DNA from: Candidatus Peregrinibacteria bacterium
GTDB lineage: Bacteria; Patescibacteriota; Gracilibacteria; UBA1369; LOWO2-01-FULL-3
DNA: 39,355 bases
Direction of reading: 5' to 3'
Assembly: GCA_030592015.1 (NCBI GenBank)
Contig: JAUUZY010000007.1
Span: 1-39,355, forward strand
The notes below the pieces were generated by a model. That model was not told the origin of the DNA, made no database searches, and saw only the letters and a list, made by a program, of their open reading frames with translations. The translations under genes were made by a program, and so were the position numbers. Within the stretch, counting starts at the first letter, position 1. Every line of letters begins with the position of its first letter. This document shows, piece after piece, positions 22,110 through 38,753 of this stretch.

Positions 22110-22859
22110 ATGTTTGATATTTGGATATATTCGTTGGGAAGTGTGCTTGTTATAAGTTTGACATCGCTTATTGGTGTTTTTGCTCTTGCCGTTAAGACGG
22201 AAAAGTTGAAGCATTTTCTGATATACATGATTAGTTTTTCTGCAGGTGCTCTTTTCGGAGGTGCCTTTCTTCATCTCCTTCCTGAAATTGTTGAGGAAAC
22301 TGGATTTACTACATATATATCGCTCTTCTTTCTTTCAGGTATCGCCTTTTCTTTTATTGCTGAAAAGGTTATTCATTGGCGTCACTGCCATCATCCCATT
22401 ACAAAAGATCATGTTCACCCTTTTGCCATTATGAATTTGTTTGGTGACGGTGTTCACAATTTGATTGATGGTCTTATTATAGGAGCGGCCTATATGGTAA
22501 GTCTTCCTATAGGTTTTGCTACCTCTATTGCGGTTTTTCTACATGAAATTCCTCAAGAGATTGGGGATTTTGGAGTACTTTTGCATGGTGGATTTTCAAA
22601 GAAAAAGGCTCTCTTTCTTAATTTCTTAATTTCACTTACTGCTGTTCTAGGTGTAGTTCTTGCCCTTCTTTTGGGTAGATATGTTGAGAATCTTACCGTT
22701 TTTCTTCTACCTTTTGCTGCTGGAACTTTTACTTATATTGCAGGATCCGATTTGATTCCCGAGCTTCATAAAGATTTTGAAATTAAGAAGTCTCTTCTTC
22801 AATTTTCTATGTTTGTGCTTGGAATTGCCCTGATGCTTCTTCTATTGCTTATGGGGTAA
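22110..22859 (+). CDS. ZIP-family divalent metal transporter (copy 1)
   Basis: 249 residues with about eight membrane helices. The two metal-site helices are diagnostic: FGDGVHNLIDGLIIGAA (HNxxDG) and VFLHEIPQEIGDFGVLLHGG (HEIPQExGD). A His-rich cytoplasmic loop, HWRHCHHPITKDHVHP, lies between helices 3 and 4. ZIP proteins bring Zn2+, Fe2+ or Mn2+ into the cytoplasm; the exact ion cannot be read off. A paralogue with the same architecture sits at 33175-33921 in the tRNA-linked region. Confidence 0.95.
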   Translation: MFDIWIYSLGSVLVISLTSLIGVFALAVKTEKLKHFLIYMISFSAGALFGGAFLHLLPEIVEETGFTTYISLFFLSGIAFSFIAEKVIHWRHCHHPITKDHVHPFAIMNLFGDGVHNLIDGLIIGAAYMVSLPIGFATSIAVFLHEIPQEIGDFGVLLHGGFSKKKALFLNFLISLTAVLGVVLALLLGRYVENLTVFLLPFAAGTFTYIAGSDLIPELHKDFEIKKSLLQFSMFVLGIALMLLLLLMG

Positions 22860-31569: not shown

Positions 31570-32550
31570 TCATCTATTCTCAAAAAACCCAGAATTTGGT
31601 CCAGTTTGTCTTCTTGGCTCTTGCTCCTCTTTGGCCCTAAATAGAGGTCTTACTCCTAGGTCTTCTTTTGTTGAGTTTCCAGCTATCAATTCCATGTGAG
31701 TCCCCGAGTTTCCCCCTTCCCTTGCCACTATCCATGGATCTCTATGAACAACTGGTCTTTGGCCATCTGATCCTTTACCTGCAAGCCATGATTTCCTCCA
31801 GGTATTTTCCTCAGACATAGACGCAACAAACTCTCTTTGAGCGCAAAGTTGCTGCATTTCATCACCCATTTCGATCCTATTGTCATCTGTAACCGTTACA
31901 GGGAACATTTCAAATTGTTTGTTTGCTAGCATTCTCTCTATTTGCATATAGTTGTACCCACAGTAAATCGGCTCTGATTCCTTGCTAGTAAACAGGAGAT
32001 TCCCTTCCCTATCTATACCGAAAAGTATACCTCCTCCAGGAAGGCTTGCTGCTGTATCCACTAAACTCCCATTATTTGCTAGAAGTATCGAACTTGCTTT
32101 CTCCCAAATTTCCTCTAGTATTTTATTTTTTTCCTGCCTAGGCAATCGCCTAAATTCATCCCAAGTGTACTCTTTTTGCATTCTTAGTCTTATTTTTTTA
32201 GGCAGTTTTTTAAAGTGATTTTCAAAACGAGGAATAGGATGTTGCTCGAAATCAATGATAAATCCCCCGTCATATAAGCCACCACTTGGATCTTTAAATT
32301 GCTTCGGATCGTTTTTTATTTTGACCGTTCTGCCTGTTGCTATAAGTGCTGGCATTGCTCCTTTAATAAGCTCACTTTCAGGTCTCTTTTTCCCCAGTTC
32401 TGCCAGAGGTCTAGGATTCCCATTCACAAGTGCCTCTACCAGAGCTATTCTCAGTTCTTCGCTTATACTACTCACAGCGTCAACAATTCGTGATTCTCTT
32501 CTGCTAATACTCCCCTTGTGGGGTCCTCTATGTCCTTTTTCAATTCCCAT
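31570..32550 (-). CDS. Unknown soluble protein
   Basis: 326 residues, no signal peptide or membrane helices; not recognised. The N-terminal half is helical and basic (SISEELRIALVEALVNGNPRPLAELGKKRP; FKKLPKKIRLRMQKEYTWDEFRRL). The C-terminal half has SLVDTAASLPGGGILFGIDREGNLLFTSKESEP, then an M-x-x-FPVTV segment and REFVASMSEENTWRKSWLAG. That order (GG-x-G, acidic turn, phenylalanine strand, S-W-x-W-like region) weakly recalls DUF4256-type proteins, but I would not assign it. It is a single gene, convergent with the SLH-CAP gene (35 bp) and directly upstream of the tRNA-linked region. Confidence 0.65.
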   Translation of the reverse strand: MGIEKGHRGPHKGSISRRESRIVDAVSSISEELRIALVEALVNGNPRPLAELGKKRPESELIKGAMPALIATGRTVKIKNDPKQFKDPSGGLYDGGFIIDFEQHPIPRFENHFKKLPKKIRLRMQKEYTWDEFRRLPRQEKNKILEEIWEKASSILLANNGSLVDTAASLPGGGILFGIDREGNLLFTSKESEPIYCGYNYMQIERMLANKQFEMFPVTVTDDNRIEMGDEMQQLCAQREFVASMSEENTWRKSWLAGKGSDGQRPVVHRDPWIVAREGGNSGTHMELIAGNSTKEDLGVRPLFRAKEEQEPRRQTGPNSGFFENR

Positions 32551-32970: not shown

Positions 32971-33059
32971 GGGTTCGATCCCCGTTGCTTAAGCATGCGA
33001 TGAATGCGTTAGCATGAATCGGATGATTAAGTACGACGGAGTGCACCCGCTCCATTAAA
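32971..33059 (+). repeat. Partial tRNA-Gly 3'-end copy split by a 58-bp insert (module boundary 1)
   Basis: 32971-32985 is identical to the tRNA T-arm 32792-32806, and 33044-33054 is identical to the acceptor end 32807-32817. Between them lies a 58-bp insert (32986-33043) absent from the real tRNA. The insert can fold: GCTTAA (32987-32992) with TTAAGT (33027-33032) and CGAT (32998) with ATCG (33018). The end GTGCACCCGCTCCATTAAA (33041-33059) recurs exactly at 34107-34125. Confidence 0.85.
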
Positions 33060-33174: not shown

Positions 33175-33921
33175 ATGACTCTAGCGTTAATCATACTATT
33201 TAGTCTCTTAGGAAGTGTAGGTGCTATTATTACAGCATCTGTTTTCCTTTTATTTAAGGAAAAAATACAAAAAGTCCTTATCCCTTGCCTAGTTTCCTTT
33301 GCCACAGGGACTTTACTTACTGCCGCTTTATTAGGATTGATACCACATGCTTTGGAACATATTACTCCTTTCCAAACCCTATTTACGGTATTAACGGGAA
33401 TTATTCTTTTCTTCCTTCTTGAAAAAATCGTAATTTGGAGACATTGCCATCACTCAAAATGTATTGAAGTTCATAAGAATACGGCACCAATGATCCTTAT
33501 TGGAGATGCATTCCATAATTTTATAGACGGAGTTGTTATTGCGGCAAGTTTTTTAATATCTATCCCATTGGGAATAGCGGTAAGCCTGTCAGTAATCGCA
33601 CATGAAATCCCGCAGGAAGTAGGAGATTTTGGAATATTACTCCATAGTGGCTATTCAAAAAAGAAAGCGTTAATATGGAATACTATTTCTAGTGCCACCA
33701 CTTTGCCAGCAGCAATAATAGCCTATTTTGCTTTGGAAAAAATCCACAATATCATCCCCTATGTCATGGCGATTTCAGCAGCAAGTTTTCTGTATATCGC
33801 GTTAGCGGATCTTTATCCAGAACTTCATCGAAAAACAGGAATTAAGCATAGCATTATACAAATTGTTCTAATGCTAGCAGGCATTGGAACAATGCTTGTT
33901 GTTTTGCAATTTCATCCGTAA
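33175..33921 (+). CDS. ZIP-family divalent metal transporter (copy 2, in the tRNA-linked region)
   Basis: 248 residues, about eight membrane helices, same architecture as the protein at 22110. Diagnostic helices: IGDAFHNFIDGVVIAASF (HNxxDG) and VIAHEIPQEVGDFGILLHSGYSKKKAL. The metal-binding loop is WRHCHHSKCIEVHKN. It differs from copy 1 at many positions, so the two are old paralogues or one was acquired. It is bracketed by tRNA-Gly 3'-end repeats (33041-33059 and 34107-34125), as expected for cargo of a tRNA-targeted element. The exact ion is unknown. Confidence 0.94.
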   Translation: MTLALIILFSLLGSVGAIITASVFLLFKEKIQKVLIPCLVSFATGTLLTAALLGLIPHALEHITPFQTLFTVLTGIILFFLLEKIVIWRHCHHSKCIEVHKNTAPMILIGDAFHNFIDGVVIAASFLISIPLGIAVSLSVIAHEIPQEVGDFGILLHSGYSKKKALIWNTISSATTLPAAIIAYFALEKIHNIIPYVMAISAASFLYIALADLYPELHRKTGIKHSIIQIVLMLAGIGTMLVVLQFHP

Positions 33922-34106: not shown

Positions 34107-34125
34107 GTGCACCCGCTCCATTAAA
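34107..34125 (+). repeat. tRNA-Gly 3'-end direct repeat (module boundary 2)
   Basis: GTGCACCCGCTCCATTAAA is identical to 33041-33059 and contains the last 11 bases of the tRNA with CCA. The TTA at 34121-34123 doubles as the minus-strand TAA stop of the amidohydrolase gene. Confidence 0.88.
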
Positions 34126-34861
34126 TTTTATTCGCCACTTCTTCAACAAGTTGCTCCATCAAGCCGTTAAGCTTTTTTACCTTCTTCTCATCACAAGCTA
34201 ATGTCTTTTCGTTTAAAAACAATGATCGATTGAATTCTATTTGAATGCCGGGGAATGTTCTTCTATGACAGTGGAATCCTAAAATATATTTTCCTCGATA
34301 TGGAGTGTTTATGGCCACACTAAATCCATGGGATTCAAAAAAAGTCTTTATAAAATTAGTTTGTTTCTTAGTACAACTAGTGTAATCGCGGTTTCCTAAG
34401 CACAGATCAGGTCTTTTCTCTCCCGCATCTTTCAATGATTTAGGTCCAATGGACCACATTGAATGACCATCAATAAAAAACTTGGCACCCGTCTTTTTGA
34501 TAGAGTCCTCTATGTCGTCATGGAATGTGTCATGATATTTCACGATTCTATCACGAATAGCCTCAATATCCGGTGGAGATTTATAAATCACTTTGCCGTC
34601 AGGTGTAGTTCTTACAACAACTCCATCAGCTTGTAACCTACATTCAGTTTCAATATCATCAGAGGCTCGATTTACATCAACGATTAGTCTTGAAATTTTT
34701 GCCTTCAATACATGGGCATTTTTTACGCTATAAATTTCGCTAGTATATAAATCTGCATGATTTCTGATGTCACGATCACTTATAATCATGTTTTTTCTGA
34801 TGATTTTAGGAACAAAAACAGATGCGTGTGGTATGGAAACAATGACAGGATATTTTTTCAT
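34121..34861 (-). CDS. N-formylglutamate amidohydrolase-like metal-dependent hydrolase (copy 1)
   Basis: 246 residues, cytoplasmic. It matches the FGase (HutG-type) family: VSIPHASVFVP at the N-terminus, NHADLYTSEIYSV, SRLIVDVNRASDD, AKFFIDGHSMWSIGP (metal-site His) and FPGIQIEFNRSLFL near the end. Classical members free glutamate from N-formylglutamate in histidine breakdown, but no other hut gene is near. Its neighbours are an ATP-grasp ligase and a second FGase-like protein, so removing an acyl or amino-acid group from a peptide or ligase product is more likely; that is inference. Its stop codon lies inside the tRNA-end repeat. Divergent from the ligase with 53 bp between starts. Confidence 0.9.
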   Translation of the reverse strand: MKKYPVIVSIPHASVFVPKIIRKNMIISDRDIRNHADLYTSEIYSVKNAHVLKAKISRLIVDVNRASDDIETECRLQADGVVVRTTPDGKVIYKSPPDIEAIRDRIVKYHDTFHDDIEDSIKKTGAKFFIDGHSMWSIGPKSLKDAGEKRPDLCLGNRDYTSCTKKQTNFIKTFFESHGFSVAINTPYRGKYILGFHCHRRTFPGIQIEFNRSLFLNEKTLACDEKKVKKLNGLMEQLVEEVANKI

Positions 34862-34878
34862 TCTAAAAATTTAAACGA

Positions 34879-34907
34879 TTGAAACATGTCTATATTCTAG
34901 ATATATT
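34879..34907 (+). promoter_or_regulatory. Promoter of the ATP-grasp gene; decides a leaderless start
   Basis: TTGAAA (34879-34884), exactly 17 nt, TATATT (34902-34907), then 7 nt to the ATG at 34915. A longer reading from TTG 34879 would start inside this -35 box, so 34915 is preferred. Confidence 0.75.
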
Positions 34908-34914
34908 GAAAGCA

Positions 34915-35772
34915 ATGAACAATCCAAAAATTATAATAATCGGATCGGACTTTAAATGGGAGGAAGAAAAACTTCTATCAGAATATTCTACATCTGAATT
35001 CATATTGTTAGGTGATCTTAATATAGAAATGGGCGAAAAAACTCGTTTTATGAGAAATGGAGTCGATCTTTTTGACTCTTTTAATGGCGACGAAAAATTC
35101 ATTATTCGCCGTTCTCGTGGGAATTTTGAAAAACTTGTAGCATTCGTGGAAATTCTCAAAAAAAGAGGGTATGTATTTACAGATTCTTTTCAGTCTATTT
35201 CTACAAATCTCAATAAAGAAATATTTTTAGCCACCATTGAATCCAAAATATTTCCTCATCCAAGCCACTCAATAATAGTCCAAATGGGTGAGAAATTATC
35301 AAATATAAAGCTAGAATTCCCTTTGATTTCTAAGCCAGTGACAGGCCGACATGGTGAGGGAATTGTAATTCATGAAAATTTGGAATCACTGGAAATGGAG
35401 TTGAAAAGCGCGCAAGAGAACTTAATAATCCAAAAGTATTTAGATATTGAATCTGAATATAGAATTTTCGTAGTTGGAAATGTTGCACTTGGAGTTGTTA
35501 AGAAAAAAGTAGCTCCAGGGAAAAAAATAGCTAATTATGCTGCTGGTTCAAGTTTCCATTCTGTGGATCTAGCTAAAAAATATTTAGATGAGGCTGTGAA
35601 CTTGTGTAAAATCCAGGAAATAGATATTGGGGGTGTGGATGTAGTAAAAACTAAGGAGGGTAAATATTTCATTCTTGAAATCAATAGATGCCCTGAATTC
35701 AAAGCTTTTTCTCAGGCAACTGAAGTTAATGTCTCAAAAAATATTATAGATTTTATTATACAAAAATCATGA
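34915..35772 (+). CDS. RimK-like ATP-grasp ligase
   Basis: 285 residues from the leaderless ATG at 34915. An N-terminal pre-grasp region (MNNPKIIIIGSDFKWEEEKLL to about residue 95) is followed by the ATP-grasp core. FPLISKPVTGRHGEGIVIH carries the ATP-binding Lys and Gly-rich loop; LIIQKYLDIESEYRIFVVGNVALGVVKKK and IGGVDVVKTKEGKYFILEINRCPEF carry the Mg2+-binding E-x-N. This order fits the RimK/LysX/CofF group, which joins an amino acid (often Glu) to a carboxylate through an acyl-phosphate. The substrate is unknown. It overlaps the next amidohydrolase gene by 4 bp (ATGA), so ligase and hydrolase are made together. Confidence 0.88.
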   Translation: MNNPKIIIIGSDFKWEEEKLLSEYSTSEFILLGDLNIEMGEKTRFMRNGVDLFDSFNGDEKFIIRRSRGNFEKLVAFVEILKKRGYVFTDSFQSISTNLNKEIFLATIESKIFPHPSHSIIVQMGEKLSNIKLEFPLISKPVTGRHGEGIVIHENLESLEMELKSAQENLIIQKYLDIESEYRIFVVGNVALGVVKKKVAPGKKIANYAAGSSFHSVDLAKKYLDEAVNLCKIQEIDIGGVDVVKTKEGKYFILEINRCPEFKAFSQATEVNVSKNIIDFIIQKS

Positions 35773-36557
35773 AAAAGCACCCAGTAATCATTTCAGTTCC
35801 ACATTCTGTTAGTGAGATTGCTAAAAAGTTTAGAGATAGGTTAGCCCTTTCAGATTTTGAAATATGGCAAATGTCTGATCCCTACACAGAGGAAACGTGC
35901 ATTTACCCTCAAGCACACGCGATCCGTAAGGCTAAGGCCCATAGAATATTAGGAGATCTAAATAGAGATAGAGACTCTAAAGATATGTTTAGAAAAAATG
36001 ATTTTTATGGTCGAAAAATTTGGAAAGATGAGAAAGAATTATCGGATAAAGAGAAAGAAGAGAATCTAGAACAATTTTGGGATCCATTTCGAAATGATAT
36101 TAGAAAAAGTTTTAAAGAATTGAACGATAGTGGATTCAAAAAAATCCTGTTTATTGATCATCATAACACTGCAATAGATCATCCTGCCAATAAAGGACAA
36201 TATTTGCCACCAATAAATTTAGGTAATTATGGGAATAGTAAGGGAGAGCTTGAGAAAACTCCTATTTCCTCTTCCCCTGAAATCATTACTGCATTTCAGA
36301 AATTCATCGCTGAAGAGTTACCAGAACTAACTGTTGAAATGAATATGGTCTACAAGGGAAGTTCCTTAGTGAGATTTGTTCGAGACGAGATAAAACCTGA
36401 ATTTCCAGATTGTGAAATTCACGCCATCCACCTAGAGTACAATCTCAATTTCATCTTTAATCCTCTATCGAAGAAGGTGGACGAAACCGCAAAAAAGAGA
36501 TTGCACGAAGGGATAAACAGTGGAATATCTTCACTTGTAGAAAATTATTTTCTATAG
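35769..36557 (+). CDS. N-formylglutamate amidohydrolase-like hydrolase, divergent (copy 2)
   Basis: 262 residues. The same family landmarks as copy 1 appear in order but altered: IISVPHSVSEIAKKF, MSDPYTEETCIY, HRILGDLNRDRDS, KILFIDHHNTAIDH (in place of FIDGHSMW) and IHAIHLEYNLNFIF. A charged insertion (KDEKELSDKEKEENLEQF) is specific to this copy. The hydrolytic core looks intact, but the changed DHH region suggests another substrate. It is co-translated with the ATP-grasp ligase. Together with copy 1 it forms a hydrolase-ligase-hydrolase cluster. A low-G+C, possibly transferred unit is consistent with its position beside the tRNA-end repeats. Confidence 0.85.
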   Translation: MKKHPVIISVPHSVSEIAKKFRDRLALSDFEIWQMSDPYTEETCIYPQAHAIRKAKAHRILGDLNRDRDSKDMFRKNDFYGRKIWKDEKELSDKEKEENLEQFWDPFRNDIRKSFKELNDSGFKKILFIDHHNTAIDHPANKGQYLPPINLGNYGNSKGELEKTPISSSPEIITAFQKFIAEELPELTVEMNMVYKGSSLVRFVRDEIKPEFPDCEIHAIHLEYNLNFIFNPLSKKVDETAKKRLHEGINSGISSLVENYFL

Positions 36558-36676: not shown

Positions 36677-37852
36677 ATGGATACAAAAAAAGACATGCAA
36701 AGCAATATCTGGAAGCTTTATTTAATTAGCTTCTTTGGTGGTGTCATGTTTTTTATTCCAATTCTGGTTCCATTTTTGATGGATTTTGGTTTCAGTATGC
36801 ATCAGATTTTTCTGGCAGAAGCTACATTTGCAATTACATTAGTTATTCTGGAAGTGCCATCAGGTTATTTTGCGGATAGATATGGTCGCAAGATTTCTAT
36901 AGTGCTTGGTGCTCTATTACATATATTTGGTTTTGCTCTGTATGCGGGTTTTCAGAACTTTTGGCAATTTGTCTTGGCAAATATAATCATTGGAATGGGA
37001 GTTGCTTTTATTTCAGGTGCGGACAGTGCTCTGATTTATGAGAGCCTCGAACAAATTAATCAGAAGAAAAGATATAAAAAAGTTCAGGGGAATAATTTTG
37101 CGATTAGCAGGTTAGCTTCTGTTGCTTCAACATTAATAGGTGCATGGTTATTCACTTTGGCACCTCGCTTGCCGTTTTATTTGAGCGTAGTTCCATTTAT
37201 TTTCATTTTCTTTGTTACCCTGACTCTACATGAAACAAAGGTGCATCATGAAATCCATGAAGGATGGGGACATTTCAGAGAGATAATTAAAGATAGTCTT
37301 TTTTCGAACAAGAAGCTCCGGAACTTCTTGCTCTTTACGAGCATTGGGGCCTTTTTCACAATAGGATTTTTTATGAACGAGGCTTATATGAGTTTTATTG
37401 AACTACCACTAATATACTTTGGTGTAGTAATAGCCCTAATGAATATCGCATCCGGCTTGGCGGCGAAATATGCTGAAAATATTGAAAATTATATAGGTAA
37501 GCCAATGTCCCTCATGGCAATGGTTTTTCTACCAGCCATTGCGTGGATGGGAATGGCGCTCTTTAATAGTTTCTGGGTTCTTCCCTTATTGATTTTGAGC
37601 AGCCTTTTGTGGGGATTTAGTTCTCCCATTTTCTCCGAGTTTATTCACGAAATGACAACTAAAGATAGGCGAGCAACAGTCATATCAATAAGTGGCCTAC
37701 TTACACGCTTGGTATTCACACTTGTTGCACCACTAATTGGATACATAACCGATGTGTTTTCTGTGCAAGAAGCTTTATTGCTAGGGGCAGTAATCTTGGT
37801 AGTTAGTGGATCTATTTCTATCTTGAGTTTGAAGAAGGTGAAGGTTATTTAG
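36677..37852 (+). CDS. Major facilitator superfamily (MFS) transporter
   Basis: 391 residues from the ATG at 36677, about 12 membrane helices. MFS motif A is clear in loop 2-3: GYFADRYGRKISIVLGALL. The helix-4/5 region has NIIIGMGVAFISGADSALIYESL, and the central cytoplasmic loop is charged (HETKVHHEIHEGWGHFREIIKDSLFSNKKLR). It resembles bacterial drug or metabolite exporters of the MFS_1 type; the substrate cannot be deduced. The stop overlaps the convergent gene at 37845 by 8 bp. Confidence 0.92.
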   Translation: MDTKKDMQSNIWKLYLISFFGGVMFFIPILVPFLMDFGFSMHQIFLAEATFAITLVILEVPSGYFADRYGRKISIVLGALLHIFGFALYAGFQNFWQFVLANIIIGMGVAFISGADSALIYESLEQINQKKRYKKVQGNNFAISRLASVASTLIGAWLFTLAPRLPFYLSVVPFIFIFFVTLTLHETKVHHEIHEGWGHFREIIKDSLFSNKKLRNFLLFTSIGAFFTIGFFMNEAYMSFIELPLIYFGVVIALMNIASGLAAKYAENIENYIGKPMSLMAMVFLPAIAWMGMALFNSFWVLPLLILSSLLWGFSSPIFSEFIHEMTTKDRRATVISISGLLTRLVFTLVAPLIGYITDVFSVQEALLLGAVILVVSGSISILSLKKVKVI

Positions 37853-38753
37853 TCTCTCCACATATTTTTTCTAGTATTTCTAAATTTATTGAGGCCTCTA
37901 CGCCATTTACTCTTCCAAGCTTATTTAGTTCTCTTAGCATTTTTTGCCCGAGCTTGCTTCCATTTTTCACAATAAGTGCAAAATCCTCTAATCCTTCTGC
38001 ATTGTTTTCGGATAAGCATATTGTGCAATTTTCATCTGCAAGAATACTTTTCCACTCTTCCACTCTCCATTCTTTCCACTTTGGTGCAATAAAAACTATC
38101 CCGTTTTCGTTTAATAGTTTTAGTGTTTCTTCAATAGGTGGAGTCTCGGAATTAAAAATACTTCTATTCATATATGCAAAATCATACTTCCCCCATATTT
38201 CTGACTCTTTTTTAAAATCCTGTGGGAAATCCCCTATGTATTGGTGATCAACAAATGGACGCTGAGTTGTTCTCACCTCCAGAACTTTGTCCCTTATTTT
38301 TTGTTCTAGTTCTAATACGTCGTTTAGTTCAACCTCATACCCTTCTTCTTCTGAAATGAACTTTCTAACTAATCCTTTCGTCTCGCTGCAGAGCTGAGGA
38401 ACAGATTTTTTTAGTCCTATGTATGGATTAATTGGGGTGAGGCTAAAGGCGTTTAGTTCAACATTAGCATTCTCGAATTCCGCTAATTTTCTCATTTGGA
38501 GAATGGCATTCCCTGCGCCTGGACCTACTTCGTTAGCATGAATTGTCTCTCCATCGGACAGTCTAAGCATTTCTTCAAATATAATTTGTGCTCCCCTTTC
38601 CAATGGACGAGTGTTTGATTCTAGTAGCTGCCCCTTTTCAGGTAAGTGGGTATGAAAATCGCTAGGTCCATAGGGTTTCGACTTTGGATCTAAAAATTGT
38701 ATTTGGCCATTTTTTTCAGCTTGATCGATTCCTTCTAAATATTCTGACTCCAT
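37845..38753 (-). CDS. Probable SAM-dependent methyltransferase-like protein
   Basis: 302 residues, soluble, weakly recognised. Residues about 68-95 read IHANEVGPGAGNAILQMRKLAEFENANVELNAFSLTP, matching Rossmann-fold methyltransferase motif I (E-x-GPG-x-G) and the following acidic strand. Later KYDFAYMNRSIFNSETPPIEETLKLLNENGIVFIAP resembles motifs IV-V (D-x-x, then the LLNENG turn). The N-terminal 60 residues and the C-terminal 60 are unlike common families. The substrate is unknown. It is the only gene on this strand here; the start ATG at 38753 has no SD and an A/T-rich upstream region. Confidence 0.6.
   Translation of the reverse strand: MESEYLEGIDQAEKNGQIQFLDPKSKPYGPSDFHTHLPEKGQLLESNTRPLERGAQIIFEEMLRLSDGETIHANEVGPGAGNAILQMRKLAEFENANVELNAFSLTPINPYIGLKKSVPQLCSETKGLVRKFISEEEGYEVELNDVLELEQKIRDKVLEVRTTQRPFVDHQYIGDFPQDFKKESEIWGKYDFAYMNRSIFNSETPPIEETLKLLNENGIVFIAPKWKEWRVEEWKSILADENCTICLSENNAEGLEDFALIVKNGSKLGQKMLRELNKLGRVNGVEASINLEILEKICGETK

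Follow-up and report, generated by a model that had tools for sequence, protein, structure and literature searches.

A RimK-like ligase gene flanked by two N-formylglutamate amidohydrolase-family genes in a Candidatus Peregrinibacteria genome: a candidate amide make-and-break cassette

The window analyzed in the present study, a stretch of 39,355 nucleotides, is the entire contig C57 of a 1.2-Mb draft genome of a Candidatus Peregrinibacteria bacterium (75 contigs, approximately 90% complete). It carries a gene for an ATP-grasp ligase (LIG) between two genes for hydrolases of the N-formylglutamate amidohydrolase (FGase) family (H1 and H2), which are the only FGases found in this genome. The features of the locus are as follows.

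34121-34861, minus strand: H1, FGase-family metallo-amidohydrolase of the ligase-associated clade (PF05013, 157 bits)
34862-34914: intergenic stretch separating the divergent H1 and ligase genes (53 bp)
34915-35772, plus strand: LIG, RimK-like ATP-grasp amide ligase (PF08443 RimK, 76.3 bits)
35769-36557, plus strand: H2, metallo-amidohydrolase of the FGase family, from a second clade with an HNT motif (PF05013, 77.7 bits)

The ligase ATG at 34915 lies 53 bp from the start of H1, an alternative in-frame TTG at 34879 would leave 17 bp, and the ligase and H2 genes overlap by 4 bp; the gene positions and spacing in an earlier note on this DNA match the sequence. The intergenic stretch contains one promoter-like match on the plus strand (34879-34907), and promoter-like matches across 34862-34914 were not in excess over those in shuffled sequences. 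The named relatives of the ligase belong to Candidatus Peregrinibacteria, Candidatus Peribacteria, and Patescibacteria, which agrees with the genome having been described as CPR-like from its sequence.

Regarding the surroundings of the trio, an exact 19-bp repeat, GTGCACCCGCTCCATTAAA, occurs at 33041-33059 and 34107-34125 in two intergenic stretches, for which the chance expectation is 0, and contig C25 also matches part of the second of these stretches. Two genes for ZIP-family metal transporters are present on the contig, one adjoining H1 (33175-33921) and the other at 22110-22859; the ZIP transporter was considered as a partner and rejected because it was not conserved alongside the trio. 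Two open reading frames on the minus strand, 37845-38753 (302 aa) and 31570-32550 (326 aa), had no Pfam family above the cut-off, and a PADLOC search for anti-phage defence systems matched no family.

Both hydrolases exceeded the PF05013 cut-off of 28.9 bits and are placed by the tree in two distinct FGase clades, that of H2 comprising 15 members with support of 100/100, in line with the earlier proposal that two different FGase-like enzymes flank the ligase. Structure prediction, which had been suggested as a check, returned the FGase fold in both cases: the AF2 models of H1 (pLDDT 86) and H2 (pLDDT 89) matched the solved FGases 2q7s (E 3.9e-17 for H1) and 2odf. More distant matches were to N-acetylmuramoyl-L-alanine amidases, with further matches of H1 to aspartoacylase and of H2 to metallocarboxypeptidases. 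When 80 FGases were aligned, the residues H12, R58, D62, R65, H133, and E209 (H1 numbering) were kept in both window hydrolases and in 96-100% of the rows, the two His being present in 80/80 and the Glu and Arg residues in nearly all. Judging from these residues and the predicted fold, both enzymes look catalytically competent. The motif DGHSMW of H1 is replaced in H2 by DHHNTA, a change that had been read as a sign of split specificity. The change is real, but it is not specific to this locus: the site carries S in 24/24 H1-clade rows and N in 15/15 H2-clade rows, and a second site in the same alignment also splits the clades (H110 versus W104). Since the HNT motif is found throughout the H2 clade, the motif difference is, on alignment evidence, older than the present locus, and specificity probably differs between the two clades.

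The ligase scored above the PF08443 cut-off (76.3 versus 21 bits) and below those of TIGR00768, the RimK family alpha-L-glutamate ligases (98.6 versus 143.4 bits), PRK10446, the S6-glutamate ligase (44.2 versus 331 bits), and TIGR04356 of the GAK system (30.8 versus 300 bits). Its profile matched Escherichia coli RimK (5zct/4iwx) at 1e-19 and LysX more weakly, and its nearest characterized relatives by profile included LysX, MptN, and RimK. The ATP/Mg residues D242, E255, and N257 and a GRHG loop were invariant in all seven LIG members aligned, which also have an NRCPEF motif in common, and the enzyme probably joins an amino acid to an acceptor through an amide bond. The tail of ribosomal protein S6 was considered as a target, and no S6 gene was found in the approximately 90% complete draft genome. 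LIG was detected at more than 180 bits in 10 of the 353 genomes of the class, and a contig scan for ligase loci with one short peptide pattern gave at least seven loci. Since no further genome with LIG appeared in a sample of 380 genomes of the phylum, the family looks restricted to this class. In genome G044 (contig C39, L109:5335-7963), three RimK-like ATP-grasp ligases, one of which belongs to LIG, are arranged in tandem with no FGase near them, and in G124 and G131 (L112:1113-3464 and L110:4506-7617) LIG is divergent to an ATP-grasp_4 gene resembling L-amino acid ligases.

Across the class, FGases of the H1 clade are present in approximately 41 of the 353 genomes and occur together with LIG in six, against approximately 1.2 expected (hypergeometric p 2.6e-4). 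In all six, which span families f1, f5, f19, f20, f22, and f24, the two genes are adjacent, such that an FGase stands beside an ATP-grasp ligase in the window and in five relatives. The divergent layout of the window genome (G000) is repeated in G033, from another family of the same order, where H1 and the start of LIG occupy one contig end and the remainder of LIG with H2 a second, that is, the window layout split over two ends that we infer belong together. In the other genomes, LIG is followed by H1 with a 4-bp overlap (G113) or a 9-bp gap (G124), H1 precedes LIG (G296), or a MATCAP fragment at a contig end is followed by LIG, an FGase of a third clade that overlaps LIG by 4 bp, and then H1 (G116). 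Four of the ten LIG genomes have no adjacent FGase, including two in which the locus is cut by a contig end (G055 and G193). The link between H1 and LIG is real and goes beyond chance, because it recurs in every class genome with both families; the ligase-hydrolase part of the earlier expectation, that the three families are neighbors in relatives, is therefore borne out.

The two-hydrolase layout fared less well as a general feature. It has a counterpart in G033 only and an analogue, built with a different pair, in G116, and the H2 clade is usually found away from the ligase: its members adjoin LIG in G000 and G033 only, and 13 of the 15 are ligase-free. As far as these genomes indicate, the two-hydrolase design is narrow, with G116 representing an independent version that uses another clade.

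LIG is not the only ligase found beside H1-clade genes. In six genomes, the neighbor is a GCS2 gene, on the same strand in G015 and G063 and divergent, as for H1 and LIG in the window, in G307, G308, G333, and G342; GCS2 was called by Pfam for proteins of the G015/G063 type, and these served to build the profile by which the remaining four were called. An ATP-grasp_4 gene adjoins the H1-clade gene in G138, and MATCAP and ATP-grasp_4 genes accompany it in G098. Since the clade adjoins RimK-like LIG, GCS2, ATP-grasp_4, or MATCAP genes, H1 appears to be a hydrolase whose partner amide ligase can be exchanged. The strongest evidence that the hydrolase acts on ligase products is that different ligase families take turns beside a single hydrolase clade. 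Against this stands the absence of a ligase beside H1 in approximately 27 of the 41 H1-clade genomes, mostly in one of two contexts, DUF1361/acylphosphatase or MscS-like. As separate observations, G333 carries a pair of H1-like FGases together with a GCS2-like ligase and a MATCAP-fusion protein within approximately 6 kb (C7:1-10000, L206), contig C56 of the window genome encodes a 794-aa protein with an N-terminal ATPgrasp_ST domain and a C-terminal MATCAP carboxypeptidase domain (L155:1531-3915), and 242 of the 353 genomes of the class have MATCAP matches, many of which lie in frames approximately 800 aa long.

Considering these findings, we lean towards regarding the locus as a modular cassette that makes and breaks amides. 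Like ATP-grasp enzymes in general, LIG would activate a carboxylate as an acyl phosphate and couple it to an amino acid, with glutamate or another acidic residue as the most likely choice. H1, a predicted metal-dependent exo-amidohydrolase, would then cleave the amide made by LIG, with the product being reset or salvaged, and H2, which would be co-translated with the ligase and differ in specificity, may trim the same or a related product. An acidic amino acid is favored because the FGase family takes its name from an N-acyl amino acid that is acidic and because of what is known of the relatives of the ligase. RimK relatives add glutamate (PMC10092738). The pairing of the ligase with one hydrolase in relatives suggests that tagging or salvage runs as a reversible cycle, for which there were already suspected examples elsewhere among bacteria.

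FGase genes are usually named for N-formylglutamate and histidine breakdown, and H1 and H2 share the Pfam family and fold of HutG. Nevertheless, a classical catabolic role is highly improbable: H1 (85.1 bits) and H2 (47.7 bits) scored far under the cut-off of the HutG equivalog TIGR02017 (278.75 bits), no histidase (PF00221) matched in the approximately 90% complete genome, and no hut genes were found near the trio. The earlier note had doubted this role from the lack of nearby hut genes and had named clustering with true HutG as a result that would overturn its view; HutG from a genuine hut operon fell outside both clades, albeit on a long branch. That the genes are neighbors by chance could be argued from the draft state of the genome and from the flanking ZIP, MFS, and 302-aa genes, whose conservation with the trio was not seen in relatives. 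This is nearly negligible as an explanation, and for H1 and LIG it is ruled out by an adjacency that recurs in six genomes of six families; chance would be a candidate explanation for H2 alone. H1 and the ligase may be the working pair, and H2 an unrelated amidohydrolase co-transcribed by happenstance, as the mostly ligase-free H2 clade would lead one to expect. We give this a sizeable minority share of our belief. Against it, the overlap of ligase stop and H2 start has been kept in G000 and G033 despite divergence of the proteins to approximately 68-71% identity, and in G116 a different FGase independently overlaps the ligase in the same way.

Within the cassette explanation, the data choose neither a protein nor a small molecule as the acceptor. 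With a probability that we place slightly short of even, and that overlaps with that of the cassette itself because it concerns only the choice of acceptor, the ligase makes a dipeptide, an N-acyl amino acid, or a cofactor's glutamyl side chain, which the hydrolases then salvage or trim, and no protein is tagged. The small-molecule or carrier ligases LysX and MptN stand beside RimK among the nearest profile relatives, and the partner ligases GCS2 and ATP-grasp_4 come from families best known for small molecules, whereas the presence of a MATCAP peptidase as partner in G116 and G098 gives a hint of a tail on a peptide or protein. A reversible cycle of protein tagging in which one enzyme writes and two enzymes from separate FGase clades, with split specificity, erase, in a layout that arose independently in G000/G033 (HNT clade) and G116 (third clade) in genomes of approximately 1 Mb, is conceivable but rather unlikely.

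The cassette would offer a concrete and testable pair of reactions in a group whose members are mainly known through metagenomes. One FGase clade tracks RimK-like, ATP-grasp_4, and GCS2 ligases, which argues that these hydrolases undo ligase products, and the histidine breakdown pathway from which the family takes its name is seemingly absent from this reduced genome. The N-formylglutamate deformylase HutG shares its fold and catalytic residues with H1 and H2, whereas the window hydrolases lie below the equivalog cut-off and have no hut pathway. Literature text searches for N-formylglutamate together with ATP-grasp yielded no paper. Systems of this kind are not new, contrary to the first impression: FGase, ATP-grasp, and MATCAP genes are clustered in relatives of the window genome and in an operon on a plasmid of the rhizobial Shinella zoogloeoides (NZ_CP132312.1), in the order FGase, MATCAP/DUF1704 ('QEGLA'), and glutathione-synthase-like ATP-grasp. 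Because of this operon, the family combination is known in annotated genomes, and the window differs by its ligase family, the lack of MATCAP, and the presence of two hydrolases. The tight linkage of an FGase with an ATP-grasp ligase is common to both, but the Shinella ligase is of the GSH-S type and that of the window RimK-like, the only MATCAP match of the window genome is on contig C56 (MATCAP is next to LIG in the relative G116), and the single Shinella FGase has no more than a distant similarity to H1 or H2. Iyer, Abhiman, Burroughs, and Aravind reportedly predicted in 2009 amidoligase tagging sets in which ATP-grasp or GCS2 ligases occur with peptidases or amidohydrolases, and the pairing of an amide ligase with a hydrolase is common to these and the window; to our knowledge, none of them combines LIG with a pair of FGases from different clades. 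In Pseudomonas, RimK is a RimK-fold ligase encoded with a hydrolase, RimB, that trims its product (PMC10092738). RimB is a protease unrelated to the FGase-family hydrolases of the window, and the window ligase, unlike RimK, falls below the RimK subfamily cut-off; nevertheless, both loci encode a RimK-fold ligase together with a hydrolase, a role in trimming that H1 and H2 may fill here.
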